Positions 1,787-32,567 of a DNA stretch of 34,768 nucleotides are shown piece after piece. The number at the start of each line of letters is the position of its first letter. Within the stretch, counting starts at the first letter, position 1. Source of the stretch: a virus; the IMG/VR virus record IMGVR_UViG_3300046689_000729, positions 1 through 34,768 of that record, one strand, 5' to 3'. Below the pieces are notes generated by a model that was not told the origin of the DNA, did not search any database, and saw nothing but the letters and a program-made list of their open reading frames with translations. Position numbers and translations under genes: made by a program.

Positions 1787-2611
1787 ATGAGCCTGCCAGC
1801 AAAAAGTCTAGTGCCAGATGCGGGCGCGATTATGGAGCAAGTCCTTATCAAGGGCGATCTCGCCAAGCTCAGCGAACATGAGCGCGTCGATTATTACAAT
1901 GCGGTCTGCAAAAGCCTTGGTCTCAATCCACTGACGCGACCCTTCGACTACATCACGCTCAACGGCCGACTGCAGCTTTATGCCAAACGTGATGCCTGCG
2001 ATCAGCTGCGCAAAATCCAGAACATATCCCTGGCGATTGTCAGCCAGGATTTGAGCGATGGAATTTATATCGTTCACGTGAAGGCAAAGACCCCCGAAGG
2101 GCGCGAGGACGAAGATTTGGGCGCCGTGCCATTGCCCGATGCGATCAAGGGGGAGATCCGCGCTAATTTGATCCTGAAGGCAATCACCAAGGCGAAGCGC
2201 CGCGCGACGCTGTCGATCTGCGGCTTGGGATTTCTTGATGAGACCGAAGTCGAAGATATTCCGGAGGCAATACCGGGAAGAAAAACAGCGCACGTCGAGC
2301 AGAAGCGGCTGCGATCTTTGGCGATCGATGCATCAGTGCCGAAGCCAACGCCTTATGAGGAATTGGACGACGAGATCGCAGAGCTTGAGGATACCGCGTC
2401 GACCGCTCAGGCCTCCGCGGTGAACACCGACCTTACCGATCGGATGGCAGCAGCGAGCGATTTGAAATTCAGACTACTTTATTCGGCAGCATCCGAGGCC
2501 GCCCGGCGCGGCGACGCGGCGTTGCAAGCGTTTTTTAAGACGCGGACAAAGGAAGAAAAGGAAGAGCTGCGCAAGATCAAAGACGAATTGGTGGCGCTGT
2601 ATCCGAAATGA
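1787..2611 (+). CDS. RecT-like single-strand annealing recombinase (putative)
   Basis: A 274-residue protein whose core at residues 36-76 (DYYNAVCKSLGLNPLTRPF, then a YITLNG.LQLYAKRDACDQLRK stretch) resembles RecT-superfamily annealing proteins of phages. In that class the protein coats single-stranded DNA and pairs complementary strands during phage recombination or replication. A positively charged segment (AITKAKRRATLSICGLGFLDE, about residues 131-151) fits DNA binding. The C-terminus carries a small helical module (residues about 230-272) often seen in these proteins. A weak Shine-Dalgarno (GGGAGA) precedes the ATG. No exonuclease partner is recognised next to it. The assignment is from motif memory, not a search. 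Confidence 0.55.
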   Translation: MSLPAKSLVPDAGAIMEQVLIKGDLAKLSEHERVDYYNAVCKSLGLNPLTRPFDYITLNGRLQLYAKRDACDQLRKIQNISLAIVSQDLSDGIYIVHVKAKTPEGREDEDLGAVPLPDAIKGEIRANLILKAITKAKRRATLSICGLGFLDETEVEDIPEAIPGRKTAHVEQKRLRSLAIDASVPKPTPYEELDDEIAELEDTASTAQASAVNTDLTDRMAAASDLKFRLLYSAASEAARRGDAALQAFFKTRTKEEKEELRKIKDELVALYPK

Positions 2612-2987: not shown

Positions 2988-3176
2988 ATGAGTGAATCCG
3001 CAATGAGCCGCATCACGTGCACGGTTCGGACGGCGCTGGAAACCAGCGGGTTAGGCCGCACCAAACTTTATGAGCTGATGGACTCGGGACGGTTGGAAAG
3101 CATCAAGATAGGCAAGAGACGGCTTATCAAGATAGAGTCGTTAGAAAAATTATTGGATGACGATGCTAGAGAATAG
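2988..3176 (+). CDS. AlpA/excisionase-type HTH DNA-binding protein
   Basis: A 62-residue protein with the compact winged-HTH pattern of the HTH_17 (excisionase/AlpA) family: TALETSGLGRTKLYELMDSG forms the helix-turn-helix and LESIKIGKRRLIKIESLEKLL the wing and final helix. The ATG at 3003 is an alternative start. Such proteins act as excisionases or small transcription activators. With no integrase in the window, excision cannot be distinguished from gene regulation. Confidence 0.6.
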   Translation: MSESAMSRITCTVRTALETSGLGRTKLYELMDSGRLESIKIGKRRLIKIESLEKLLDDDARE

Positions 3177-3702
3177 CAAAATAAGATCGGCGCAGCTGTA
3201 CCGGCAATTCTCCAAGACCGGAGAGCTTTTATATGTCGGTGTGTCGCTAAGCGCTCTGGTCCGCCTCTCTCAACATAAGGACAATTCGCATTGGTTCTCA
3301 GATATTGGGAAGGTTGAAATCCAGAACTTTCCAACTCGCGAGTCCGCCATTAGCGCCGAAACCGCAGCTATAAAGAACGAGAAACCGAAGTGGAATGTTC
3401 AGCATAAGAAGTCAATAGAAAAACCCGAGCCGAGAATAAGCATCGCCAAAAATGAATTGATCTACTCCGTTGTGACACTCCAGCCGATTTATGATTTTCG
3501 TGAGGCTGCGGGAGTTCTTCATATTGGGACGGGCGCTCTTACAAGACTTATTCAGAATGGAAAGATTGGATTTATTGAGCTTCCTCCGTTCAGGGAGGGA
3601 GGCAAGCTAAGGATCAGAATAACTGGCTGGCAATTGCTTGATTATATCGAATCGCTTGGCGGACTAATCCCCGGCCGTACCCCCGGCCGCGCCCACGGAT
3701 AA
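3157..3702 (+). CDS. GIY-YIG-like nuclease domain fused to HTH DNA-binding domain
   Basis: Residues 12-84 match a divergent GIY-YIG nuclease fold: QLYRQF and LLYVGVS supply the two signature strands, LVRLSQH the conserved Arg, SAETAAI the catalytic Glu and PKWN the closing Asn. All expected catalytic positions appear to be present. Residues about 108-170 form a second domain with an HTH_17-like pattern (FREAAGVLHIGTGALTRLI, then a basic wing GKLRIRITGW). The start overlaps the end of the preceding HTH gene; ATG 3157 or ATG 3163 are both possible. The fusion suggests sequence-guided DNA cleavage or nicking, as in homing-type or phage-defence nucleases. That role is inference. Confidence 0.6.
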   Translation: MTMLENSKIRSAQLYRQFSKTGELLYVGVSLSALVRLSQHKDNSHWFSDIGKVEIQNFPTRESAISAETAAIKNEKPKWNVQHKKSIEKPEPRISIAKNELIYSVVTLQPIYDFREAAGVLHIGTGALTRLIQNGKIGFIELPPFREGGKLRIRITGWQLLDYIESLGGLIPGRTPGRAHG

Positions 3703-3718
3703 TAAGGCATGAAATCAA

Positions 3719-3943
3719 ATGCTTAAATCTATCGCGACGCGAAAAGGACGCCTGGTCAACGGCTTGCGGACAATGGCGAACAACGGCGAACCGAAAATGT
3801 CAGGAGTACACGACCGATCTCTCGCATTGAAAATGCTATGTTTTTCGGCAAAACTCGGGTTCTACCCCCGGCTTAGCATCGCCGCGGCCGCCCGGAGATT
3901 TTCCGAACTCTATAAATACCGTCGGGCAGACGGCTCACTATAG
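3719..3943 (+). CDS. Hypothetical basic protein, 74 residues
   Basis: ATG at 3719 follows a weak AAGG. The product is basic, with LSIAAAARRFSELYKYRRADGS at its C-terminus. No family is recognised. Its stop lies inside the first copy of a repeated stop/start cassette (3932-3956). The frame could be spurious in its N-terminal part. Confidence 0.4.
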   Translation: MLKSIATRKGRLVNGLRTMANNGEPKMSGVHDRSLALKMLCFSAKLGFYPRLSIAAAARRFSELYKYRRADGSL

Positions 3944-3956
3944 GGAATGAACGATG
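3932..3956 (+). repeat. Stop/start cassette repeat, type A, copy 1
   Basis: GGCTCACTATAGGGAATGA-ACGATG, spanning the end of one small gene and the ATG of the next. It is repeated at 5047-5072 with a single one-base difference, 1.1 kb away. Related shorter copies are at 4229-4248 and 4403-4422. Confidence 0.75.
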
Positions 3957-4232
3957 CGGGCAATAAGTCACGTTCCCCATACACCGTGGTACGTAAACGA
4001 GATGCCGAAGTCTGATGGCTTGGCTGTCATCCACAATGGTGCTCATGGGGGAAACCACATTGCTGAGTGCGAATGGCACATCGCCGCCTTTATCGAGGCC
4101 ATGACCTCTCTATCGCACGACGATCTATGCCGCCTTTCTCGTTCATTTAACGAGAAGGCAGACTTGGCCGATTCACAAGATTACCGGATCAACGAGTGGC
4201 TAAAGACCATGATCGCCAATTCGGATCGCTAA
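3954..4232 (+). CDS. Small phage protein, 92 residues (hypothetical)
   Basis: Starts at the ATG of the type A cassette. The N-terminus (SHVPHTPWYVNEMPKSDGLA, then HNGAHGGNHIAECEWHIAAFIEAM) resembles the widespread small phage proteins that begin 'HTPGPW' and end in an 'AHLIAAAPDL'-like helix. Their function is unknown to me. The remaining C-terminal part is helical and acidic. It is followed by another cassette at 4229-4248. Confidence 0.55.
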   Translation: MRAISHVPHTPWYVNEMPKSDGLAVIHNGAHGGNHIAECEWHIAAFIEAMTSLSHDDLCRLSRSFNEKADLADSQDYRINEWLKTMIANSDR

Positions 4233-4248
4233 TGATGAATGAACGATG
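4229..4248 (+). repeat. Stop/start cassette repeat, type A variant, copy 2
   Basis: CTAATGATGAATGAACGATG joins the TAA of one gene to the ATG of the next. An identical 20-base copy lies at 4403-4422. Confidence 0.75.
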
Positions 4249-4416
4249 TATCTCGTCACGCTAGAGGATGAGGATGGCTTTTGGTGGGACGACCCCACGC
4301 CGTTCCACACCGAGCGCGATGCGCGGGCCTTTGTTGCCAAATCCGAAAGGCCGCCGAAGGATTATGCTTACGTTCTTTATAGCTGCCGCGAGCTTTCAAT
4401 CACTAATGATGAATGA
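4246..4416 (+). CDS. Small acidic protein, 56 residues (hypothetical)
   Basis: ATG at 4246 lies in the repeated cassette. The product begins MYLVTLEDEDGFWWDDPTPF and continues with TERDARAFVAKSERPP and a strand YAYVLYSCREL. It is aromatic and acidic, with a probable alpha/beta fold. The coding pattern is convincing and an overlapping frame from 4268 is a shadow. Function unknown. Confidence 0.6.
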   Translation: MYLVTLEDEDGFWWDDPTPFHTERDARAFVAKSERPPKDYAYVLYSCRELSITNDE

Positions 4417-4422
4417 ACGATG
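4403..4422 (+). repeat. Stop/start cassette repeat, type A variant, copy 3
   Basis: Exact 20-base copy of 4229-4248. Here the ATG opens a nine-codon reading frame that runs straight into the type B cassette, as if the gene body between them had been deleted. Confidence 0.75.
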
Positions 4423-4449
4423 CTCGCCAATGAGCAGGAGGGGAAATGA
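4420..4449 (+). other. Nine-codon ORF (empty gene cassette or leader peptide)
   Basis: Reads MLANEQEGK and stop. The start comes from a type A cassette and the rest is exactly the tail (LANEQEGK) that the 4446-4691 gene also carries at its C-terminus. Either a gene body has been lost by recombination, or this is a leader whose translation loads ribosomes onto the overlapping ATG at 4446. Confidence 0.4.
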
Positions 4450-4450
4450 G
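4422..4450 (+). repeat. Ribosome-binding cassette repeat, type B, copy 1
   Basis: GCTCGCCAATGAGCAGGAGG followed by GGAAATGAG. It contains a near-ideal Shine-Dalgarno (AGGAGGGG) and a start ATG overlapping a stop. Copies recur at 4663-4691, 32033-32056 and 32268-32296. Confidence 0.8.
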
Positions 4451-4691
4451 CGGTAGCATGCTAAGTTGTATAGGACAGTCGATGTACGGAAATAGAGAAG
4501 AATGGATCGAGGACACCCACAAGCTACGCATTGCAAACGACCGGATCGCCAGATTGCGCGCGGCGCTTGAGTGGTACAGCAGGCCCACTAATTGGAAAGC
4601 AAGCGGGGAGGGCTATGGCCCCATTCCTGCTAATCAAGATGCGGGTAAGCGCGCCCATGCAGCCCTCGCCAATGAGCAGGAGGGAAAATGA
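4446..4691 (+). CDS. Small phage protein of the 'IARLRAALEWYSRPTNW...GKRAHAAL' type, 81 residues
   Basis: ATG at 4446 has a strong Shine-Dalgarno (AGGAGGGG) from the type B cassette. The product has a short helix (ANDRIARLRAALEWYSRPTNW) and the closing motif DAGKRAHAAL. That combination is common in small unannotated phage proteins with no known function. The last nine residues are encoded by the next type B cassette, and the stop overlaps the next ATG. Confidence 0.65.
   Translation: MSGSMLSCIGQSMYGNREEWIEDTHKLRIANDRIARLRAALEWYSRPTNWKASGEGYGPIPANQDAGKRAHAALANEQEGK
4663..4691 (+). repeat. Ribosome-binding cassette repeat, type B, copy 2
   Basis: CCTCGCCAATGAGCAGGAGG followed by GAAAATGAC. 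Near-identical to 4422-4450; it supplies both the end of the preceding gene and the ribosome-binding site of the next. Confidence 0.8.
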
Positions 4692-4846
4692 CAGTCCAGT
4701 TCTGGGTTAAATACGCCGACAAGGATTGGATTGAGTATTCCTACATTGGCACAGAGGCAGCGTTGACGTTTCTAATTGAGCGCATGCTACGAGATTCCGC
4801 TCTAACCATTGCTGAGGTGGCCTATGAATCACATCGTCCCTGCTAA
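4688..4846 (+). CDS. Hypothetical small protein, 52 residues
   Basis: ATG at 4688 is served by the AGGAGGG of the type B cassette. The product starts MTVQFWVKYADKDWIEYSYI and continues with a helix (TEAALTFLIERML) and ends PC. It is aromatic and compact, with no recognised family. It overlaps the next short frame (4824). Confidence 0.55.
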   Translation: MTVQFWVKYADKDWIEYSYIGTEAALTFLIERMLRDSALTIAEVAYESHRPC

Positions 4847-4883
4847 TGAGCAGGACCGCGAGCAATCGGTCATGAAGGATTAA
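4824..4883 (+). CDS. Very short ORF, 19 residues
   Basis: Reads MNHIVPANEQDREQSVMKD, overlapping the end of the preceding gene. It contains the ANEQ tail seen in the type B cassettes, so it may be a decayed cassette rather than a working gene. No Shine-Dalgarno is evident. Confidence 0.25.
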   Translation: MNHIVPANEQDREQSVMKD

Positions 4884-4885
4884 CG

Positions 4886-5056
4886 ATGGCAATACGGGGA
4901 CCATACATTATTCCGCGTTTGAGTTCGTTCTACTGGCACCTGAGTGGGCTTTATACTTTCGGTCGCCAGAACATTCGGCAGCACTTCCCCGGTTCGCTCA
5001 TGCGCTACAATCGTTCACCGCGCCCCGCCAAGAGAAGGCGCAAAAAGGCTCACTAA
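4886..5056 (+). CDS. Small very basic protein, 56 residues
   Basis: ATG at 4886 follows GGATTAACG, a partial type A junction. The product has an aromatic N-terminal half (PYIIPRLSSFYWHLSGLYTF) and a strongly basic C-terminal tail (RPAKRRRKKAH). Such a tail suggests nucleic-acid binding, but no family is recognised. The stop lies in the type A cassette at 5047-5072. Confidence 0.5.
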   Translation: MAIRGPYIIPRLSSFYWHLSGLYTFGRQNIRQHFPGSLMRYNRSPRPAKRRRKKAH

Positions 5057-5072
5057 TAGGGAATGAACGATG
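5047..5072 (+). repeat. Stop/start cassette repeat, type A, copy 4
   Basis: GGCTCACTAATAGGGAATGA-ACGATG, a one-base-different copy of 3932-3956. It joins the stop of the basic protein gene to the ATG of the secreted protein gene. Confidence 0.75.
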
Positions 5073-5462
5073 AGCGCGATTTGGAAAGGTTTATTGGCCA
5101 TCGTGGTCATCGCCGTTTGGTTTTTGCTGACAACGCAGAGCCACGCCGCCGAATGTCTCAATAAAAGCGAGGCCCACGCCAAGTATCACAATAGTCATAT
5201 CTGGTGGCACGGCGAGGAACGATGCTGGGATGATAATCCGAGGCGGAAGGTCGAGGTCAGCGTCGAGAAGGCGAGCACGGAAACCAAGGAGGCGACGGTT
5301 TATTTCCCCGAGTTCAGGCCGGGCCTATTCGGCTTTGCCGTCGTCATGCCGCTGTCCTGGAGCCATCCCTGGTATTCGCCGCGTTCGATCGCGACTTGGC
5401 CGCCGATGATAGATGTCGATCGGGTACCATTTACGGCCTGGACAAAGCGCGTTGGGGAATAA
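5070..5462 (+). CDS. Secreted protein with Trp/His/Cys-rich motif, 130 residues
   Basis: Residues 1-27 form a clean signal peptide (KGLLAIVVIAVWFLLTTQSHAA) with cleavage expected after AHAA or HAA. The mature protein begins ECLNKSEAHAKYHNSHIWW and contains a paired Cys (ECL...RCW). The style is like small exported proteins of Bradyrhizobium-type bacteria. It ends with a hydrophobic, aromatic region. Being the last gene of the early train and exported, it may be a lysogenic-conversion (moron) gene. The stop directly abuts the stop of the convergent late operon (5463). Confidence 0.6.
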   Translation: MSAIWKGLLAIVVIAVWFLLTTQSHAAECLNKSEAHAKYHNSHIWWHGEERCWDDNPRRKVEVSVEKASTETKEATVYFPEFRPGLFGFAVVMPLSWSHPWYSPRSIATWPPMIDVDRVPFTAWTKRVGE

Positions 5463-5807
5463 TCATGGTTGCTGGTATGGATGGGCTTTGATCTCGTCTT
5501 CCCGCACCTTGGCCCCGTCCATGGCCGCAACATAGGCCCGCGCTGCCTTGCGGATGCCGTTCAGCGCCCGACCCGGTTGCCCCGTCGGGTCTTTCATCCA
5601 GCCTTCGAACAGAAATTCGACTTGGTGGTGGTAGGCATCTTCGAGCGCATCCCTATCGACGGCAAGCAGATGCTCGTCGTATTGGGATCGTTCTAAAGCC
5701 GGTAATGGCGGCGGCGGATAGACTGCTCCCAGGTTGGAGAGAACCAACAGGACCAGAAGCACCACCAGGCCGCCAAATATGATCAGGCGGCCCAGCAAAA
5801 GCAGCAT
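5463..5807 (-). CDS. Membrane-anchored protein at the end of the lysis module, 114 residues
   Basis: Begins MLLLLGRLIIFGGLVVLLVLL, a strong N-terminal membrane segment, followed by a Pro-rich linker (YPPPPLPALE) and a helical soluble domain with LDRDALEDAYH-like spacing and GWMKDPTGQPGRALNGIRKA. Its ATG overlaps the stop of the hydrolase gene (ATGA). One membrane anchor plus a helical exterior after the endolysin would fit an inner-membrane spanin or an accessory lysis protein. No outer-membrane lipoprotein partner is seen, so that is only a suggestion. A longer frame running from 6548 is a shadow except for this part. Confidence 0.6.
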   Translation of the reverse strand: MLLLLGRLIIFGGLVVLLVLLVLSNLGAVYPPPPLPALERSQYDEHLLAVDRDALEDAYHHQVEFLFEGWMKDPTGQPGRALNGIRKAARAYVAAMDGAKVREDEIKAHPYQQP

Positions 5808-7497: not shown

Positions 7498-8337
7498 TCA
7501 TGGTGTTCGTATGGGCGTGCCGCGTGCCAGCGTCAAGACACCGGCGCCAGGAACTAACGACTTGAATAATCTTGGTGCGCTTCCGGAAAGCAGAAGCGCC
7601 GCAGAGCTTGGCTGTACGGCGGGATTTATCGCAGATTGCAATCGGCCGAATAGATCCCACTCATTGGTACCGATCTTTTTCAACGTCACCACAGCGCCAA
7701 TCACGGCCGTAATCGGTGCGCTGTCCAGAGGATGATTCAGTATCACACCGCTAGCGGCTTGAAATATTAGTGCGTCGCCGTTTTGGCGAAAGCTGATTTC
7801 TGAATTCAGTGGAATGGATACATCGGCCAAGGCCGGAATTGTAATGATGATGCTCCCCGACGCCACCGATGTGCAGCGATAATATTTAAGATTGTCGCTT
7901 CCTTGCAGCGTATAAGTCGCCGCCGACATCTGGGCCGATTCGGTCTGACCCATCGGTCCAAAAATGAAATCATAAATATTATTGCCGCCGATCTGCGCGC
8001 CAGCGTCAAACGTGAGATTGCTAGTATGGGCAATCTTGACCAAATAAAGATTGGATGACGCGATAACGAGATCATTGACTGCATAAGTCGTCGACGGTTG
8101 CCAATCGCCACGGCCATGCCACTGTGCCGTCGGGATGGTGACGGTGTCGGAGCCGCCGCCGGCCGCAGTGGTGTAATGAAACGTCAGTTGATTGCCGGCA
8201 ATTGTTATGGCGTCGATTGGATTGCTGACGCTGATGTTCTCAAGCCCGACGACTCGGCCATCCAGATCGCTAATGTTGCCGTCTTGCTCGGCAAACGTAA
8301 GTGCCGAGCCTTTGACGAGTCGATATGTGAGTGGCAT
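7498..8337 (-). CDS. Tail fibre-like protein ending in repeat units, 279 residues
   Basis: Residues about 75-115 contain a segment typical of phage fibre proteins (GRGDWQPSTTYAVNDLVIAS, then NLYLVKIAHTS). Residues 130-225 are beta-rich, of the kind that trimerise in fibres. The C-terminal 40 residues (from about 240) carry one and a half copies of the 22-residue P-x-x-A-x-L-x-L-S-G-x-A-P repeat that fills the 782-residue protein at 17688-20036. Sitting between tail-tip genes and the endolysin is usual for receptor-binding proteins. Exact role is inferred. Confidence 0.6.
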   Translation of the reverse strand: MPLTYRLVKGSALTFAEQDGNISDLDGRVVGLENISVSNPIDAITIAGNQLTFHYTTAAGGGSDTVTIPTAQWHGRGDWQPSTTYAVNDLVIASSNLYLVKIAHTSNLTFDAGAQIGGNNIYDFIFGPMGQTESAQMSAATYTLQGSDNLKYYRCTSVASGSIIITIPALADVSIPLNSEISFRQNGDALIFQAASGVILNHPLDSAPITAVIGAVVTLKKIGTNEWDLFGRLQSAINPAVQPSSAALLLSGSAPRLFKSLVPGAGVLTLARGTPIRTP

Positions 8338-9078
8338 TTACGCGCTCATTGATGGCAGCAGCGAATCCGAAACCGGATTATAGAAATACAGCGATTTGAT
8401 TATCACCGGGCCGCCGGGCGTTCCCGCACCGTTGAAATCGTCCACGTTAATTCCTCCGAGATGATAATTGTTGAAATGCGTGAACGAAACATGTGTCGCA
8501 CCGCCATCATAAGACGCGCCGGTGTCGCTCGGATCCGGCAAGTGAACAAGAAGATTGCCGAAGCTGCCATCCGTTCCTATTGGGAATCCATCCAGCGAAA
8601 TTCGCAGCTTGGCGTTGGTGCGTGTCAACGCGATCTTGTGATGGCCGAATGCAAAAGTCCCATTTGACGTGTCCTTGGCGCTCCGGCCGCCATCATTATT
8701 GTTCGAATCCGTCACTTGGCCATCGCCAAACCAAGATGACGCTTGAACCGAAGCCCCGGTAGCCCATTCTGCTAGTTCTAATAAGACCGAGCGTTGGGAA
8801 TCGCTAAGGGTCTGGAAGTCAATAACTGCGGTAAAGCTACACAGGTCAAAGTAGTTCTTGAATGCCGACGAGATGATGCTTGGCGCAACAGTATGGCCAG
8901 CATTTCCAACCTCTAATCCATTTACTGTGATGTAGCTGGGATTTGAAATCAGAGCGGCTGCTGTTATCGCAGTGCCGCCGACCGCATAATCGCCGGTCAA
9001 GAAGTTCATGCGCGCGACGTCCGATGGTCCGCCGGAGGTTGTCGGCCCGGCAATCTGGGTTTCAACGCCAAAAATCAC
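8338..9078 (-). CDS. LamG/concanavalin-like structural protein, 246 residues
   Basis: GTG start at 9078 with GGGATGA upstream. The middle of the protein has a jelly-roll signature: FTAVIDFQTLSDSQRSVLLE, then HHKIALTRTNAKLRISLDG, and a closing strand IKSLYFYNPVS. These are the strands that make the laminin-G-like sandwich, a sugar- or protein-binding fold. It sits with tail fibre genes and is probably part of the adsorption apparatus. A second LamG-type protein lies at 20050-20814. Confidence 0.6.
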   Translation of the reverse strand: MIFGVETQIAGPTTSGGPSDVARMNFLTGDYAVGGTAITAAALISNPSYITVNGLEVGNAGHTVAPSIISSAFKNYFDLCSFTAVIDFQTLSDSQRSVLLELAEWATGASVQASSWFGDGQVTDSNNNDGGRSAKDTSNGTFAFGHHKIALTRTNAKLRISLDGFPIGTDGSFGNLLVHLPDPSDTGASYDGGATHVSFTHFNNYHLGGINVDDFNGAGTPGGPVIIKSLYFYNPVSDSLLPSMSA

Positions 9079-9097
9079 TTTGAATCATCCCGATTTG

Positions 9098-10174
9098 TTA
9101 TGATGGCGGCACGAAAGTCGCGTCCGCCACCACTTCAGTTCCCTTGGACTGAAGCGGATCAAGTGTTTTAATGCTTGATATAAAAGTTGTAGCCAGAACA
9201 AAATCGACGCCGTCAACAGTGACCGCAACGCCAGCCAGACTAAACAGTGCTACATCTCCCGTCGGAACTTCTGGGGAGTCAGGCGGGCTAAGCGGCGTCC
9301 CAAATATTGCAACGCTAAGCGTGGTTCCACTGGTTTGGACAGGCGCCTCGCCAAGAGTGCCCCACGGCCCGCCGGTCGGCGAAAAGCTCTGCGGTGACAC
9401 CGTCGCATCGTGCGTTATAACTACCGTTCGCGTTCCCGCGCCGCCGATAGATGACATGCGGATCCAAGTAGCCGAGGATATTGCGGGAATGCCTGTCGTT
9501 TCGCGGACAAATGACCACGAGACGGAAACGCCGCCCTCTTGGCCATGCCAGTTCACAATATTCTGCAGCGGATCAATTCTATAGGGCGGATCGAAGCCGT
9601 CTTCGGAATCGGCCAGGTCTAAACCGGGATCGCAAAAGCCCTTTGTGACATCATAAGGAACCTTAGAGTTATCGACCGGATCGCCCTTATCGTCATTGCG
9701 GATATATAACTCATATTCCTGATACTGCTCTTGCGGCAGCGCGGCGTTCAATTGATCGATCTGCTCTACGTCAACCCAAACTTCGGAGCTTTCGTCATTA
9801 TCCTTGAAAAATCGAACGACATGCTTTTTCTGGTGCGCGGGCGAATCTTCGCCCGACGGCTGAACTGGAGCAGGATCTTTATTGATCAAAACCCATTCGG
9901 TTTCTTGATATTGATCGGCCGCCGATCTGGTAAAAAAACTCTGAATGCGCTCGACATCGATAAACTTGTCCGTCGTAAGGCTTTTGACCTGCTGCACTCT
10001 AGTCTTGCGTGATGACTTTGACGAATTATCAAAGAAAAAATGACCCTCCTGGTATTGCTCGGCCGCAGTTATGAAGCTCGCATCGTAATTTACAGGAATA
10101 TCAACGAAAAGCGTATTGTCGGGCGGAAATTTAATGCGTTTTCGTTTCTGTTTTCGGTCGGCATTCTGCGCCAT
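9098..10174 (-). CDS. Tail-associated protein with three QYQE repeats, 358 residues
   Basis: The N-terminal half holds three diverged repeats of about 28-30 residues (23-50, 71-100, 133-162). Each opens with a [FW][VI]D[IV] strand and closes with a QYQE motif followed by an aromatic/hydrophobic strand. The C-terminal half is beta-rich (VNWHGQEGGVSVSWSFVRET, then SSATWIRMSSIGGAGTRTVV), resembling an Ig- or fibre-like domain. No family is recognised for the repeat. It lies directly downstream of the tail-hub gene and a 71-residue protein, consistent with a tail-tip component. Confidence 0.55.
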   Translation of the reverse strand: MAQNADRKQKRKRIKFPPDNTLFVDIPVNYDASFITAAEQYQEGHFFFDNSSKSSRKTRVQQVKSLTTDKFIDVERIQSFFTRSAADQYQETEWVLINKDPAPVQPSGEDSPAHQKKHVVRFFKDNDESSEVWVDVEQIDQLNAALPQEQYQEYELYIRNDDKGDPVDNSKVPYDVTKGFCDPGLDLADSEDGFDPPYRIDPLQNIVNWHGQEGGVSVSWSFVRETTGIPAISSATWIRMSSIGGAGTRTVVITHDATVSPQSFSPTGGPWGTLGEAPVQTSGTTLSVAIFGTPLSPPDSPEVPTGDVALFSLAGVAVTVDGVDFVLATTFISSIKTLDPLQSKGTEVVADATFVPPS

Positions 10175-17362: not shown

Positions 17363-17688
17363 TTGACGCGCGTCCTTGCCGTGAATGTGAATTCCCAATG
17401 GCCGATCCGCTCAGCACTGGTGTCACTGGCATCTGCATCAATGAAAGCCGTGTATTTGATATCTTTGCTAAAAACCAACAGATGCGAAAGCCCGGCGACA
17501 TAATTGCCTTCCGAGCCGGCAATGTAGGCCATCGGTTTTGGCCAGGTCTCGCCGGCCACTGGAACGCCGGATAAATTCTTGAGCGTCACCGTGACAACGG
17601 CATCGTCGAGGAATGTCCCTTCGACTTCACTTTTAAGCCCGGTCAAAAGCAAATCGTTGGTGTTGCCGATAAAAGCGACGGCCGTCAT
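17359..17688 (-). CDS. Small beta-rich virion protein, 109 residues (hypothetical)
   Basis: The start at 17688 is preferred: its ATG shares a base with the previous stop (TAATG) and AAGGA lies at a proper distance, whereas the ATG at 17694 abuts it. The protein reads TAVAFIGNTNDLLLTGLKSE and VVTVTLKNLSGVPVAGETW, an Ig-like strand pattern, and ends HWEFTFTARTRVK. Probably a structural protein that works with the neighbouring repeat protein. Confidence 0.5.
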   Translation of the reverse strand: MTAVAFIGNTNDLLLTGLKSEVEGTFLDDAVVTVTLKNLSGVPVAGETWPKPMAYIAGSEGNYVAGLSHLLVFSKDIKYTAFIDADASDTSAERIGHWEFTFTARTRVK

Positions 17689-20036
17689 TAGCATTCCTTC
17701 ACGTTTGGCTTACCGGCCAGCGTAGCATTGATCTCGACTAGGCCTTGCAGCTCGGCGGCGATCGAGGCCTCGCCGCCAATCTCCGGATTGATACTGATCG
17801 AAGTGCAGACCAGCCATTTGTGCTCGGCCGAGCTCGCCCGGACAACGGAGGGCGCGTCGGACGATAGCAAGAGGCTGCCTGTTGCAGCTCGTAGAATAAT
17901 ATCTCGACGCGCGACCGGCGGAGCGGCAACCAGCGCCAGCACGGCACTGGCCGGAACGCGATTGGCGCCAAACGAAAGCGTGGGTGGAGCAGACGAGAGC
18001 GCGAGACTGGCCGCCGCCGGCTTGACGGCACCGCTGACCTGAATTGCCGGTGCCGCACCGGCGACTGCCAACGTTCCAACTGCCGGCGTCCGAGACTGAT
18101 TAAAGGTCTGAGCGGCAGTCGGAACATTGCCCGACAGCGCCAGATTGGCCGCCGTCGGTTGCTTGGCAAGCGCGATCAGTAGGCTCGGGGCAGCGCCAGA
18201 TAGCGCCAGGGACGCGGCCGCAGGAGTCTGGAGAAGGCTCTGGGTAAGGCTTGGGACGTTCCCCGTTAGGGCCAGCGCACCGGCGTTTGGCGCAACCTGG
18301 AACGTCCGTAATAGGCTGGGCGCGGCACCGGTTAGCGTTAAGCTCCCGCTAGCCGGGATCGGCTGTAGATTACCTCCTAGAGTCGGTGCATTGGCCTGCA
18401 GGGTTAGAGCAGCTGCGGCCGGAATATCGATAACGGCCAAGGTCAGCGACGGCGCCGGCCCAGTAAGGGTCAGGCTCGCAGCCGCCGGGACCTTCGGGAA
18501 ATCAATCCCGCCGACGGTCAATAACGGCCGCGGCGTAGCGAACGATTCGGCGAAAATCTTCGGCCGTAGCTCAGGCCGGCGATGATAAATCGGCGAGCGG
18601 AAAACGGTCGGAAGCGCGGCAATGCTACTTGGAGCAGCGCCCGAAAGAGTCAGACCGGCCGCCGCCGGAACGTCGAACAAACTCTGCCCGGCGAGGGACA
18701 CTTGACCGGTCAGGGTCAGCGTCCCGGCGGCGGGCGAATCCCGCAGATCCTGAACCAGAACCGGCGGCGTAGTCGATAACGCGAGACTGGCGACCGCCGG
18801 AGTGTCGGCGACGTTGACGGTCGCACTTGGCGCAACGCCAGTCAGCGCCAGTCCGCCAGCGGCGGGCGAATCCCGGAGATCCTGGACCAAGATCGGCGCA
18901 ATGCCGGTCAGGGCCAGAGATCCAGCCGCAGGAACTTCAAGCGCGCCAGCAACAGCAGAAGGCGCGGCGCTGCTCAGCGTCAGCGATGCTGCGGCGGGCG
19001 CGTCAAGAAACGCCGTTGAGACAATCGGCGCAGCACCCGCAAGCGCGAGATTCGCCGCCGCCGGGACTTTTAGGAAATCAACCGGGAAAGCCGGCAACAG
19101 GTTGACTACGTCGTCAACGCTGGCTTTTTGCGTTCCGGGTATTTTGTGATGGATCGGCCCGCGCAGAATGTAGTTCGGCGTACCGATGATTGCGCCCGGA
19201 GCACTTCCCGATAACGTCAGATTTCCCGCCGCCGGAATTTCCGGGAAATTAACCGCCGCTAAAGTCGATAACAGCAGATTCGGATAATCCGTCTGCTGCT
19301 TAGCCGTCCGCAGCCGCAGTTCCGGCAAGTCTTCGTTGGTGCTGTCGGCAGCATCAGGGATCGTACGAAACGCGGTGACGAATACCGCAAATTGCTGCGC
19401 GGTGCTCGACAGCGTCGGAGCGTAAACGGCGGTTGCGATGGCACCGCTTTGCTGGATAAAGCCGCCATTGACACGCGAGCCAGCCGCACCTCCGGTCGTC
19501 GCTTCATTCGGCGGCGTGCTCCAATTCGCCGCTTGTGTGAATGTCGCGCTGCCACCGGCAGTCGAGGTGCCACTCGAACACAGCGCGCCGATAAACAGAT
19601 CGCCGGCATTGGCCGGCGTACCAGACGTTACAGTGATCGTTCCTGTCGTACCGGTCGCATTGGCGCGAGCCGCAGTGTCTTCAGGATTTGCGCCCTGCAG
19701 AATGCCGCTGAAATAACTGACCGAGATCGAGCACGACGACGCCGTTAAATTGCGCGTATAGGTAATAGTATTGCCGGAAACCAGTGCCTTCGAATTGAAG
19801 GCAAAGAAGACCATGCCGCGGCCATTCGCGGCCAGGCCGGCAAGGTTCGCCGCCTGCGATGCGTTCCAAGTATTGCTGGCGGTATCGGCCAGCGTCCCGC
19901 TGGTGCCGGACGTGGATTTCTCGGTAACAGCAACGACGATCAGCGAACCGGCAGGAATGCCGCCGGCCGGAACGGTGACGGCGAGCGTGGCGCCGCTGGC
20001 CCCGGTAGCGGTGCCGATATTGATTCGTGAGAACAC
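17688..20036 (-). CDS. Large repeat protein with 22-residue P-A-A-x-S-L-x-L-S-G-x-A-P array, 782 residues
   Basis: GTG start at 20036. Residues 1-230 form a beta-rich domain (AGSLIVVAVTEKSTSGTSGT, SISVSYFSGILQGAN). Residues about 267-730 hold roughly 18 repeats, mostly exactly 22 residues, of consensus PAA.sLtLsG.AP plus about 8 variable residues. The array is broken into blocks by two related linkers containing R-x-P-I-x-H, each leading into an L-L-x(n)-[ND]-F-x-x-[IV]-P-A-A entry. The C-terminus (EHKWLVCTSISINPEIGGEA to GKPNVKEC) is a different small domain. It is Ser/Thr/Ala-rich and hydrophobic, with few charges. Likely a tail or head-surface fibre; function unknown. The same repeat ends the fibre protein at 7498-8337. 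Confidence 0.65.
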   Translation of the reverse strand: MFSRINIGTATGASGATLAVTVPAGGIPAGSLIVVAVTEKSTSGTSGTLADTASNTWNASQAANLAGLAANGRGMVFFAFNSKALVSGNTITYTRNLTASSCSISVSYFSGILQGANPEDTAARANATGTTGTITVTSGTPANAGDLFIGALCSSGTSTAGGSATFTQAANWSTPPNEATTGGAAGSRVNGGFIQQSGAIATAVYAPTLSSTAQQFAVFVTAFRTIPDAADSTNEDLPELRLRTAKQQTDYPNLLLSTLAAVNFPEIPAAGNLTLSGSAPGAIIGTPNYILRGPIHHKIPGTQKASVDDVVNLLPAFPVDFLKVPAAANLALAGAAPIVSTAFLDAPAAASLTLSSAAPSAVAGALEVPAAGSLALTGIAPILVQDLRDSPAAGGLALTGVAPSATVNVADTPAVASLALSTTPPVLVQDLRDSPAAGTLTLTGQVSLAGQSLFDVPAAAGLTLSGAAPSSIAALPTVFRSPIYHRRPELRPKIFAESFATPRPLLTVGGIDFPKVPAAASLTLTGPAPSLTLAVIDIPAAAALTLQANAPTLGGNLQPIPASGSLTLTGAAPSLLRTFQVAPNAGALALTGNVPSLTQSLLQTPAAASLALSGAAPSLLIALAKQPTAANLALSGNVPTAAQTFNQSRTPAVGTLAVAGAAPAIQVSGAVKPAAASLALSSAPPTLSFGANRVPASAVLALVAAPPVARRDIILRAATGSLLLSSDAPSVVRASSAEHKWLVCTSISINPEIGGEASIAAELQGLVEINATLAGKPNVKEC
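17847..19238 (-). repeat. Tandem 66-base coding repeats
   Basis: DNA encoding the 22-residue array. Most units have diverged, but a block is recently duplicated: GGCGGGCGAATCCC occurs at 18729 and 18861 (plus-strand coordinates), 132 bases apart, exactly two units, and both copies continue into a LVQDLRDSPAAG coding stretch. Confidence 0.7.
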
Positions 20037-29413: not shown

Positions 29414-29610
29414 TCTTCGGCCACCATGTCGCGACGCTTATAGGCTCGTTTCTTCTTCGGCTCGTCGTCTAAATCTTCGGCCAGTTGCGCCGAGATTAAA
29501 ACATGGCGATGCACATCAACATCGCCATGCTCGTTAAAGAGCTCGAAGACGTCGCCCGCTTTAAGATTGCGGTTGGCGTAGCGGAACGCCTTCGAGGCTC
29601 GCATCATCAT
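29410..29610 (-). CDS. Small basic protein between capsid and portal, 66 residues
   Basis: Start among three consecutive ATG codons overlapping the capsid stop (ATGATGATG; 29610, 29607 or 29604). The body reads NRNLKAGDVFELFNEHGDVD then VHRHVLISAQLAED, followed by a Lys-rich patch (EPKKKRAYKRRDM). The GDVFE strand and size suggest a small SH3-like or KOW-like protein. Function unknown. Confidence 0.55.
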   Translation of the reverse strand: MMMRASKAFRYANRNLKAGDVFELFNEHGDVDVHRHVLISAQLAEDLDDEPKKKRAYKRRDMVAEE

Positions 29611-31685
29611 CCAGTGACCGCTCCGCCATAGGCCGCGGCGTTGATATAATAAACGCCCTTATCACGGCCGCGCGCCCAAGTGATGTATTGCTCGGCCCGC
29701 ACGAACAGCAAGTTTTGCTGGAATGCGGAGACGAGATGCCAATCGGTCGAGGTCGGATTGTCTTGCATTTCGACCGAGGCCTCATTCGACAGATCGATCT
29801 GGATACCGCCATCGTCGGCAAGCAGAACCGACGGCGGATGAATCGCGGTGATCTGACCGGACGGCGAGTTGTTCGAGGTTATAACCTGCACACCGAGAAC
29901 CGAGCCGCCGTTGCCATTGATATCGGGGAATTGGCGAACGCCGAGCGTCGTCATCATCGTGCCGATTGATGTCGCTAAAACCGGCTGCATGATCAACACC
30001 AGACCATCGGTCGGAATATTGTACTCCTGAAAGTGAAACAGAATCTCGCGCAGGTCGTGGATGACCGCCGTGATGTCCGTTCCAGATGCCGCATCGTGAT
30101 CGCAAGTATTCGTTATCGAGGCGGGATTTTGGCCGACAATCGCCGCCACCGATGGATCGATAAACTGCACATCGGTAAATTTGGCGATGCCTTTCGCCAG
30201 ATTGTTACGTACCAGGGTTTCGATCGACGGTGACGAGAACTTCACCAACTCGTCGGTGACACCCATGATACAGGCGGTCTTGGCGAAGGACAGCGACACA
30301 AAGTCGAAGCTGCCGGCGGCGACCGGCTTAGACCGGCCTTCCCCGACCCACTGCGCCGTGATCACCGAATTCTCGCGCGGCACTCTTGAGTTGAATGGCA
30401 CCCGCGTCAGGCCTGGAATACGGCCCAAGAAAGTTTGCGGCACCAAAAACTCGTAGAAATCAGCAACTAAATTTGCGGGGTAAACCAAGGCAGACGCCCA
30501 AGTCGTTCCCGTCGTCGTGCCAGTCGCCACCGCAGCCTTGGTCCGCAGATGGTTTTCCACTTGCGGCCATTGCCCGCAGAACTGCCGCGTCACCGCGAAA
30601 ACGTCGCGATGATATTTCACCGCATGCGCTTCGCAGGCCAGCGCCTTGATCAAAGCAATGCCGGGCTCGAGCACTGGCGCCCTAACCTGGATGCTGCCCG
30701 GATTCGATATCTCCATGCTGCCGTCGCCGACGACCGGCTGCGCCCGCATGATCATTTCTTTCTCGATCGTTCGGCAATCGGCCAATTCGCGGTCAATCGC
30801 CTTGATGGTCGCCGAATGCTCGTCGAATGCATTCTGCTCAGGTTCGTCCTTGGTACGATCCTCATCGGCAACCCTGGTTTGAATGGCATCCCGCGCGGCC
30901 GCCTCGGCCCCGCGTTTTGCCTCGAGATCCTTAATTCTTTCGCTGTTTGTCTTGGCCATGGTCGTGGCCCTTTCAAGCTTGATTGATCGGGATGCCACGA
31001 CGGTGGCGGGTTTTTCCTTTTTCTGGCTCGACGGAGCCGGCAGTTCGATCGGCGCTGCCCCTTGGCCGGACGCGGCGCGCAGCACCTGATCGATAGAACG
31101 GATATTGGTGATGGTGGCTTCTGAGTTAGCCGGAATGGTCACGGCGGATAGTTCTAACCATTCCCATTGCTTGAATTCCTGCGCGCCCCAAGGATCTTTG
31201 GGATTGAGCGGTTCAACTTCCAGACCGCGAAAACCGATCGATACTGCACGAACGAGACCGGCCTTGAGCGATTGCCAGGCCTCATCGAGCCGATCTTTCA
31301 AGCGGCCGGGTTCGGCAACGTTGGCAATCTTGGCGCGGAAGGGAATGCCAGCTTCGCGCGCCTCGGCCCATACCACCTGGCCGATCGGCGACGTGCTGTC
31401 GTGCTGCCACAACAGCGGCATCGGCAACGAAAACTTAGCGCCGAGCGGATTTATGATATCGCCGATGCGGTCCGGCGTTGGCGTAGATGCAATGCCTTCG
31501 ATCACCCGCTGATCGTTATCGAGCGATTTGATTTCAAAGGTCGCATAAGCATAACCGGCCATCGGCTTCATAGGACAATCGCCGCGCGGACAATCGGCAA
31601 TCGCGCCGGCCTTCTGCTGCATCGGGCAATCGCCCATCATCGGACAGTCGGCCGCGGTCGGGCCGGCTTTTTCAGGTAAGGGCAT
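29607..31685 (-). CDS. Fused prohead protease and HK97-fold major capsid protein, 692 residues
   Basis: Residues 45-200 are a U35-type prohead protease: VIEGIASTPTPDRIGD, LLWQHD (His95), VRAVSIGF (Ser149) and WLELSAVTIPANSEA. A coiled-coil delta region follows (about 243-310), then the HK97 capsid fold (about 330-690), ending FVRAEQYITWARGRDKGVYY. Fusion of the two is known in some phages. An internal ATG (Met243, base 30959) with AAAGGG upstream could give a separate capsid protein. Residues 13-39 carry four Asp-Cys-Pro motifs, three followed by Met (Cys14, 20, 32, 37), which is unusual. AGGAGG (31690-31695) precedes the ATG. Confidence 0.85.
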   Translation of the reverse strand: MPLPEKAGPTAADCPMMGDCPMQQKAGAIADCPRGDCPMKPMAGYAYATFEIKSLDNDQRVIEGIASTPTPDRIGDIINPLGAKFSLPMPLLWQHDSTSPIGQVVWAEAREAGIPFRAKIANVAEPGRLKDRLDEAWQSLKAGLVRAVSIGFRGLEVEPLNPKDPWGAQEFKQWEWLELSAVTIPANSEATITNIRSIDQVLRAASGQGAAPIELPAPSSQKKEKPATVVASRSIKLERATTMAKTNSERIKDLEAKRGAEAAARDAIQTRVADEDRTKDEPEQNAFDEHSATIKAIDRELADCRTIEKEMIMRAQPVVGDGSMEISNPGSIQVRAPVLEPGIALIKALACEAHAVKYHRDVFAVTRQFCGQWPQVENHLRTKAAVATGTTTGTTWASALVYPANLVADFYEFLVPQTFLGRIPGLTRVPFNSRVPRENSVITAQWVGEGRSKPVAAGSFDFVSLSFAKTACIMGVTDELVKFSSPSIETLVRNNLAKGIAKFTDVQFIDPSVAAIVGQNPASITNTCDHDAASGTDITAVIHDLREILFHFQEYNIPTDGLVLIMQPVLATSIGTMMTTLGVRQFPDINGNGGSVLGVQVITSNNSPSGQITAIHPPSVLLADDGGIQIDLSNEASVEMQDNPTSTDWHLVSAFQQNLLFVRAEQYITWARGRDKGVYYINAAAYGGAVTG

Positions 31686-31755: not shown

Positions 31756-31971
31756 CAGTGCTCTATCTTGGAGGCTATCGAGCAGTGTGAGGCATTAACC
31801 GGCCGCAAGATGAATACGGTTTATGTCGATACACCGCGTATTGCCGACCACATCTGGTACATAAGCGACGTTCGCAAGTTTCAGTCGCATTATCCTGATT
31901 GGGATTTGACGTATGATATACCAAGGACGCTAACCGAAATGCACGATGCGTTAAAACAGGCAAGCCGATGA
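31747..31971 (+). pseudogene. C-terminal remnant of an NAD-dependent nucleotide-sugar epimerase (extended SDR)
   Basis: The frame reads SQHQCSILEAIEQCEALTGR then KMNTVYVDTPRIADHIWYIS and DVRKFQSHYPDWDLTYDIP. This matches the last 70 or so residues of CDP-paratose/tyvelose-type and related sugar epimerases, in which this part closes the substrate pocket. The NAD-binding Rossmann domain is missing and there is no good start: the only initiator in frame is a TTG at 31768. It lies opposite in strand to the late genes and ends just before the coiled-coil gene. It is taken as the debris of an acquired sugar gene. Confidence 0.6.
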
Positions 31972-32032
31972 TAGATGCGAATATCGTTAATTATCCCAAG
32001 TGTTGTATTAGGCTCATCGTCGCGACAAACAC

Positions 32033-32056
32033 GCCGAGCAGGAGGGGAAATGAGCG
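32033..32056 (+). repeat. Ribosome-binding cassette repeat, type B, copy 3
   Basis: GCCGAGCAGGAGGGGAAATG AGCG. In one frame it still reads AEQEGK-stop, the same peptide tail as the early copies, although no gene precedes it here. It supplies the ribosome-binding site for the ATG at 32050. Confidence 0.75.
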
Positions 32057-32280
32057 AATATGATGACGATGCCGACGATGAGATTAGGAGCCTTAGAGCC
32101 GAGAATGCCAAGTTGCGCGCGGAGAATGAGGACTGCAACGGCTATGTACGGGACTTGGAAAGTGAGGTTGCCAATCTGCAATCGGCGCTTGAGGACGCAA
32201 AGAAAGCTCTGACTGTACACGGCAAAGAACTTGGATTTGCGATTGCACTTGAAAAGATCACGGCTGCGCTCGCCAAATAG
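32050..32280 (+). CDS. Coiled-coil protein, 76 residues, in the plus-strand island
   Basis: ATG at 32050 has the strong AGGAGGGG of the type B cassette; the in-frame ATG at 31975 lacks such support. The acidic start (SEYDDDADDEI) leads into heptads of Leu and Glu (RSLRAENAKLRAENED, VRDLESEVANLQSALEDAKK). Ends ALAK. Small coiled-coil phage proteins of this kind have no defined role. It reads against the surrounding late genes and so probably has its own promoter, which I cannot identify. Confidence 0.55.
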   Translation: MSEYDDDADDEIRSLRAENAKLRAENEDCNGYVRDLESEVANLQSALEDAKKALTVHGKELGFAIALEKITAALAK

Positions 32281-32296
32281 CAGGAGGGGAAATGAT
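32268..32296 (+). repeat. Ribosome-binding cassette repeat, type B, copy 4
   Basis: GCTCGCCAAATAGCAGGAGG followed by GGAAATGAT. It ends the coiled-coil gene with TAG and provides the ribosome-binding site of the next ATG (32292). It differs from the 4422 copy by a two-base change at the stop codon. Confidence 0.75.
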
Positions 32297-32567
32297 TTGT
32301 TTTATTGGTGTGGCAGCAATAGGCGTTTGTGTTAGCTTTGCTATTTATCTAGTCATTATCTGCGCCCGGATAGATAGAATGCACTACGCTGACGGCCATG
32401 ACCGTGACACCAATCAGCCAAGCACGCTCAGCGATAGTCAATGCATCAATGGTTGGCATCATCGGTGCAACGGCGGGCCAAAAAGTTGCCATCCAAGCAG
32501 CCCGAACAGAATGAATAGCAATATCGTGTTGCCAGCGACGCCATACGTTCCGACCATTCCCGCATAA
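32292..32567 (+). CDS. Small membrane protein, plus strand, C-terminus uncertain
   Basis: ATG at 32292 has the strongest kind of ribosome-binding site in the window (AGGAGGGG). The N-terminal 26 residues (MICFIGVAAIGVCVSFAIYL VIICAR) are one membrane helix followed by basic residues. From about residue 20 onward the frame overlaps, on the opposite strand, two convincing small membrane genes of the late operon. Its polar C-terminal part may therefore be antisense shadow, or the island may have landed on those genes. Confidence 0.35.
   Translation: MICFIGVAAIGVCVSFAIYLVIICARIDRMHYADGHDRDTNQPSTLSDSQCINGWHHRCNGGPKSCHPSSPNRMNSNIVLPATPYVPTIPA
32349..32462 (-). CDS. Small membrane protein 2 after the terminase, 37 residues
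   Basis: Reads MMPTIDALTIAERAWLIGVT then VMAVSVVHSIYPGADND, with one membrane helix and an acidic end. Its ATG overlaps the stop of the 56-residue membrane gene (ATGA), so the two are coupled. A pair of tiny coupled membrane proteins is a typical holin/antiholin layout, though they sit far from the endolysin. Role unproven. Confidence 0.5.
   Translation of the reverse strand: MMPTIDALTIAERAWLIGVTVMAVSVVHSIYPGADND

Follow-up and report, generated by a model that had tools for sequence, protein, structure and literature searches.

Tiny genes in the window, by which we mean the whole 34,768-nt stretch of viral DNA analyzed here (positions 1 to 34,768 of IMG/VR record IMGVR_UViG_3300046689_000729), are joined by short repeated sequences that carry the stop of one gene and the start of the next, and because the neighbors differ in relatives exactly at these joins, they seem to serve as plug-in points at which phages swap small genes and translation stays intact. 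On the sequence comparisons that follow, exchange at the junctions is well supported. The likely explanation, in our judgment, is that the junctions exchange by homologous recombination, probably with the help of phage annealing recombinases.

Contigs compared and putative host

Contigs bearing such arrays were found by pattern scans of IMG/VR. The records discussed below are G001 (3300046642_000300), G002 (3300047471_000410), G003 (3300046463_000479) with its copy G017 (3300047312_000136), G004 (3300045141_000167), G016 (3300047471_001049), which is the sister of the window, the 185-kb contig G018 (3300046642_000884), G020 (3300047311_000306), and L079 (3300050821_010577). Every array contig is a metagenome assembly, and in several of them one end of the contig lies close to a junction. 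Scanning with a short type A pattern gave 25 matches, mostly due to chance, the true relatives being L010, L016, and L023. The INPHARED collection of cultured phages held only chance-level matches to the window, and no genome of the GTDB set matched it. The exact B junction was absent from 84,980 bacterial genomes, and allowing up to three mismatches it was absent from eight genomes that carry related terminases. Relatives of the terminase lie mostly in Hyphomicrobiales genomes, which suggests a host within this group; a soil origin of the samples is an assumption drawn from related organisms.

Repeated junctions in an array of tiny genes

Four exact copies of the core GAATGAACGATG lie on the plus strand within the 1.1 kb from 3945 to 5072, with none in the rest of the 34,768 nt, and each copy ends in an ATG that opens an ORF (Table 1). 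The core is the sole 12-mer with four plus-strand copies in the window, whereas dinucleotide shuffles of 3700-5470 (500 in all) gave no 12-mer with more than two copies. Exact repeats reach 20 nt, compared to a mean of 10.3 and a maximum of 16 for the longest repeat in the shuffles. Junctions of kind A take three forms, A1 (CTAATAGGGAATGAACGATG), A2 (CTAATGATGAATGAACGATG), and A3 (TCGGTCATGAAGGATTAACGATG), and the extended A1 copies, GGCTCACTATAGGGAATGAACGATG at 3932-3956 and GGCTCACTAATAGGGAATGAACGATG at 5047-5072, are one 1-nt indel apart. Kind B reads CTCGCCAATGAGCAGGAGGGGAAATGA. The earlier note had listed junction copies at 3932, 4229, 4403, and 5047, and all four are present at those positions, but the list was incomplete, as form A3 and kind B also exist. 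It had also described the copies as joining small genes, but the copy at 4403 opens only a 9-codon ORF.

Every junction holds one or more stop codons and then ends at, or overlaps with, a start codon. Shine-Dalgarno-like bases are found in B (a full AGGAGG), A1 (AGGGA), and A3 (AAGGA) and are not clear in A2. The genes 5' of the two A2 copies stop in different frames (TAA at 4230-4232 compared to TGA at 4414-4416), and the A2 repeat is therefore not conserved as upstream coding sequence. Other conserved bases (GAATGAACG and TTAACG) have no ribosome-pairing role. No other gene of the window uses junction sequences, which are confined to non-structural genes. A3 is additionally found in G003, G016, and G018, and B in G001, G002, and G004. 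A third repeated element, motif C, encodes IARLRAALE inside B-type genes, and short matches between arrays are nearly all junctions or motif C. Contig L079, which also carries motif C, has at 3650-4500 what looks by eye like a DnaB-type helicase split by an intein that contains an HNH region.

Two positions of the array look emptied. The ORF at 4420-4449 (ATG CTC GCC AAT GAG CAG GAG GGG AAA TGA) has the B junction itself as its body, as though two junctions had fused with no gene between them, and 4838-4888 looks like a second such position.

TABLE 1 Array, second island, and upstream gene for a predicted annealing protein in the window
Feature	Position	Strand	Remarks
Predicted Rad52-fold single-strand annealing protein	1787-2611	+	1.3 kb 5' of first junction; AlphaFold and Foldseek
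Upstream gene	3719-3943	+	Stops within A1 copy 1
Junction A1, copy 1, ACTATAGGGAATGAACGATG	3937-3956	+	Stop of 3719-3943 gene, AGGGA, ATG of 3954 gene
Tiny gene	3954-4232	+	92 aa, no family
Junction A2, copy 1, CTAATGATGAATGAACGATG	4229-4248	+	
Tiny gene	4246-4416	+	56 aa, no family
Junction A2, copy 2	4403-4422	+	20/20 identical to 4229-4248
Remnant ORF, 9 codons, MLANEQEGK*	4420-4449	+	A2 fused directly to B junction
Junction B, copy 1, CTCGCCAATGAGCAGGAGGGGAAATGA	4423-4449	+	AGGAGG Shine-Dalgarno
Type B gene	4446-4691	+	81 aa, ending ALANEQEGK*
Motif C, GATCGCCAGATTGCGCGCGGCGCTTGAG, intragenic	4544-4571	+	IARLRAALE; 28/28 identical to L079 2977-3004, gene otherwise unrelated
Junction B, copy 2	4665-4691	+	
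Tiny gene	4688-4846	+	52 aa
Truncated B junction, GCTAATGAGCAGGA, then A3, TCGGTCATGAAGGATTAACGATG	4838-4888	+	A3 at 4866-4888; no gene between
Tiny gene	4886-5056	+	Missing in G016
Junction A1, copy 2, CTAATAGGGAATGAACGATG	5053-5072	+	
Last array gene	5070-5462	+	130 aa; G016 homologue at 1121-1549
Second island	31759-32388	+	630 bp; epimerase C-terminal fragment plus B-junction genes
Epimerase C-terminal fragment	31771-31929		Within second island; 87% to G001
Partial B copy, AGCAGGAGGGGAAATGA	32037-32053		
Junction B, copy 3, CTCGCCAAATAGCAGGAGGGGAAATGA	32269-32295	+	

At the junctions, neither terminators nor inverted repeats or stem-loops were found, promoter-like matches stayed at chance level, and compared with shuffles, no junction had a clearly better fold (best z = -1.87, for the double B/A3 junction). 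The sequence ACGGCTCACTATAGGGA at 3929-3945 is one base off the T7 promoter core, ACGACTCACTATAGGGA; just one A1 copy reads this way, and the T7-like promoter was set aside as a probable coincidence. A GIY-YIG nuclease with a helix-turn-helix region is encoded immediately 5' of the array (3157-3702), and homing by this protein was rejected, its domain being absent in the other array contigs. A 140-nt cassette of G003, considered as a structured RNA, folds like shuffles (z = 0.11) and matches no Rfam family. Two further features of the window lie outside the array: eleven imperfect 41-nt repeats at 17917-19252, most of them at spacings that are multiples of about 66 nt, inside the minus-strand gene at 17688-20036, and a prohead protease fused to an HK97-type major capsid protein in one reading frame at 29607-31685.

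Relatedness changes at the junctions

Window positions 5803-31670 align with G016 in a single collinear block (25.9 kb, 98.0% identity, largest indel 12 bp), and gene content differs at two places only, the array and the second island. In the array, window 4776-4888 is identical to G016 1-113 (113/113), and identity ends exactly at the junction ATG (4886-4888), past which the window has a single gene ahead of the 5070 gene, while G016 has about six other tiny genes joined by type A junctions. The earlier note had proposed to test in related phages if gene content changes exactly from one junction copy to another, and it does. The overlap 5' of the breakpoint is just 113 bp because the G016 contig starts there, and the exchanged stretch ends near 5803 because the 5070 gene is itself only ~77% identical between the two phages. 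Window 3941-3972 and G016 922-953 match at 31 of 32 bases, and G016 935-1096 has near-identical first six codons and the same 3' junction as the 3954 gene of the window around a different body. G016 also contains a partial duplication (200-292 and 675-771, 90% identity) that ends at a junction on one side only, its left end lying elsewhere. Exceptions to junction-bounded change are some block ends and the second island, in whose place G016 has 4 bp and whose edges are not junctions.

Across seven contigs, 23 type A copies gave 253 junction pairs, G017 and G020 being omitted as they repeat the G003 array. Sequences were related upstream only in four pairs (window/G016, G003/G018, G003/G002, and, more weakly, G003/G001 at 0.75), downstream only in two (G003/G018 and G003/G001), and on both sides in none. 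This one-sided relatedness in 6 of 253 pairs supports the reading, put forward in the earlier note, of the junctions as exchange points. G003 and the otherwise unrelated G018 share a 159-bp cassette (96.9% identity) that begins inside one A junction and runs to 3 nt beyond another. The insert in G018 has a GC content of 54.8% within flanks of 38.7%, and on either side of it stands a copy of a 25-bp direct repeat of the target (24/25), which looks like a target-site duplication or a template switch. On the reverse complement of L071, the direct repeat around the insert of the 185-kb contig is located at 7556-7580 and 8048-8072. G003 and G020 have two short pieces in common but are otherwise largely unrelated, except that they share an array block of at least 1,326 bp, which begins at a start-codon junction, 21 nt 5' of an ATG, and is identical over its last 1,074 bp.

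Seven of 11 internal ends of shared blocks, taken from a hand-made list, fall inside a junction (±3 nt), where ~10% (about one) would be expected (P of about 1e-5). Several block edges lie off the junctions, namely those of the second island, a 79-bp block, the left end of the G016 duplication, and the G018 target. In the first gene after the junction, G003 and G001 differ 1, 2, and 12 times at codon positions 1, 2, and 3, respectively, and the tiny genes are truly coding in at least this tested case.

Candidate annealing proteins and a proposed mechanism

The AlphaFold model of the protein encoded at 1787-2611 (mean pLDDT of 74.8) has RAD52 as its best match, followed by Mgm101, Red-beta, and RecT. 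All 13 Foldseek matches at E ≤ 0.001 were to RAD52, with a VIA Z of 9.2 over 86 residues, and the model thus predicts a Rad52-like core fold. In Pfam, PHROGs, and NCBIfam the protein had no match beyond chance level, while two relatives matched Rad52_Rad22 weakly (best E = 0.0018). The 12 members collected here have 38 invariant positions and possibly make up an undescribed family of annealing proteins. Its relatives in L030 to L040 are without junctions; just 5' of the homologue in L031 lies ~1 kb of low-complexity sequence of GGCAGGC/GGCATGG type (8220-9215). G003 encodes a RecT protein (PF03837, 6.8e-12) with a PD-(D/E)XK nuclease domain 5' of its array and G001 a RecA-like protein, and RecT and ERF models found no annealing protein in G004 or G018. 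The minimal pairing length is 23 to 27 bp for Red-beta and 31 to 34 bp for RecA, and junction length comes close to these values (PMC3945230); some pairs share just 12 to 24 nt of identity, at or below the minima measured for pairing.

We propose that the junctions are short portable units of stop codon, ribosome site, and start codon that separate interchangeable tiny early-region genes in a group of presumably soil-dwelling phages. With the same 20 to 27 bp at many positions, both inside one genome and across phages, closely related or not, any two copies could pair, and exchange could thus start and end at a start codon. After such an exchange, the upstream gene would keep its stop codon and the downstream gene its initiation site, so that nearly every product would be translatable. 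Pairing would be performed by phage single-strand annealing proteins tolerant of short homology, such as the predicted Rad52-fold protein of the window or the RecT protein with its nuclease in G003, and small genes would be gained, lost (as perhaps at 4420-4449 and 4838-4888), replaced, or moved as blocks. We infer the part of annealing proteins in making the exchange from their presence near two arrays, and the products of the tiny genes presumably serve accessory early functions. The junction could also be kept for translation, with exchange as a by-product, and, no matter which enzyme acts, breakpoints could look sharper because selection preserves translation signals. Phages with little other sequence in common carry the same junction set, and they may therefore draw on a shared pool of tiny genes. 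In such a community-wide interchange, annealing recombinases would set the length and identity of the junctions that persist, and tiny early genes would be traded singly or in blocks; this extension is a serious possibility that we hold only tentatively.

Competing explanations

Phage mosaicism has two standard models (PMC3233612, PMC3029335), one of which is illegitimate recombination. Here breaks would fall anywhere and only products broken at gene boundaries would survive selection, the junctions resembling one another just because they are good translation starts. The edges of the second island (31759 and 32388) and the G018 insertion with its 25-bp direct repeat have this look. However, both partners of the one-sided pairs carry the same junction up to and including the ATG, which random breaks would not produce, and the conserved bases without ribosome pairing are dispensed with by other genes of the window. 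We consider illegitimate recombination unlikely to account for the array. Regulated translation through start-associated sequences like the SAS of cluster K mycobacteriophages, in which the repeats bind the ribosome or a factor and gene turnover is unrelated, is a good deal less probable. It is consistent with the ATG at the end of every junction, with the sensible spacing of the Shine-Dalgarno-like bases in B, A1, and A3, and with the restriction to non-structural genes, which also applies to SAS (PMC3203893). Yet A2 lacks a clear Shine-Dalgarno sequence, and regulated translation predicts neither that relatedness stops at a junction nor that a junction-to-junction cassette turns up in an unrelated contig. 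A role in translation may well exist alongside exchange; as the sole explanation, translation is weak.

If the array had arisen by tandem duplication and divergence, the bodies would be old paralogues of which only the junctions stayed alike. The G016 duplication ending at a junction fits this, but bodies beside junctions of 92 to 100% identity retain no residual nucleotide similarity, and the same body is found at 90 to 97% identity in other phages beside different neighbors, making duplication highly improbable. Just as improbable is an assembly artifact, in which short repeats led the assembler to join unrelated metagenome sequences. G016, G002, and G017 do have a contig end no more than about 150 bp from a junction, but the shared stretches beside junctions (113 to 160 bp) exceed the length of the repeat. 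Furthermore, the G003 array is identical up to 16094 in the independent G017 (16 kb, 100%), a third assembly (G020) has the array as far as 15792, and the GC shift and target repeat of G018 mark a real insertion. A site-specific (integron-like) cassette system or a retroelement that targets the junction would suit discrete, co-oriented, repeat-bounded cassettes but has next to no probability, as integrase, resolvase, and reverse transcriptase are absent in 10 records (some of them fragments), there are no inverted repeats, and several junction sequences take the place of one core site.

It is a standing question if the mosaic joints of phages come from targeted homologous recombination or from random breaks followed by selection, and two sources state that most joints lack identifiable conserved boundary sequences (PMC3029335, PMC3233612). 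Homologous exchange at the junctions would bear on this question: boundary sequences are present here at most tested joints and are short, defined, several per genome, and common across phages, making the targeted model directly testable. The junctions also provide a sequence handle for pools of tiny accessory phage genes that protein families miss.

Comparison with known systems

Integron cassette arrays are likewise made of small interchangeable genes, but the arrays described here have neither an integrase nor inverted repeats capable of folding into recombination sites, and no tyrosine or serine recombinase was found in the 10 records, some of which are incomplete. PeSL (promoter-early stem-loop) cassettes were reportedly described by Arbiol in 2010 and Comeau in 2014. 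In T4-like phages, they too place a repeated regulatory sequence between small genes and mediate shuffling (PMC4503421). Unlike PeSL, with an early promoter and a stem-loop terminator in the repeated cassette, the junctions have no stem-loop, terminator, or promoter, and their signal acts in translation, with the start codon as part of it.

SAS and ESAS of cluster K mycobacteriophages are short asymmetric repeats directly 5' of the ATG of non-structural genes, with Shine-Dalgarno-like bases and a distribution over different gene families (PMC3203893). The junctions likewise lie immediately 5' of start codons in one orientation, but they read AGGGAATGAACG, AAGGATTAACG, and AGGAGGGGAA and do not match the SAS consensus GGGATAGGAGCCC. 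SAS lie mostly in intergenic gaps over 50 bp, ESAS have 17-bp inverted repeats that are missing from the junctions, and the section of the source consulted reports no gene exchange at SAS (PMC3203893). Lacking promoters and terminators, inverted repeats, a clear fold, and any integrase, resolvase, or reverse transcriptase, the junctions are not PeSL, ESAS, or integrons, and their combination of features was not found in the literature searched, mainly freely accessible articles.

The boundary sequences of lambdoid phages, as two sources describe them, are also short, conserved, and intergenic, with modules exchanged between them by homologous recombination (PMC3029335, PMC3233612). As in that system, the same short sequence is found here at both parental joins, and phage relatedness changes at that sequence. 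Unlike lambdoid boundary sequences, the unit here is a single tiny gene, the boundary is a stop, ribosome-site, and start signal, and it recurs many times per array and is common to phages otherwise unrelated in sequence. By analogy, the junctions resemble SAS in position and lambdoid boundary sequences in behavior.
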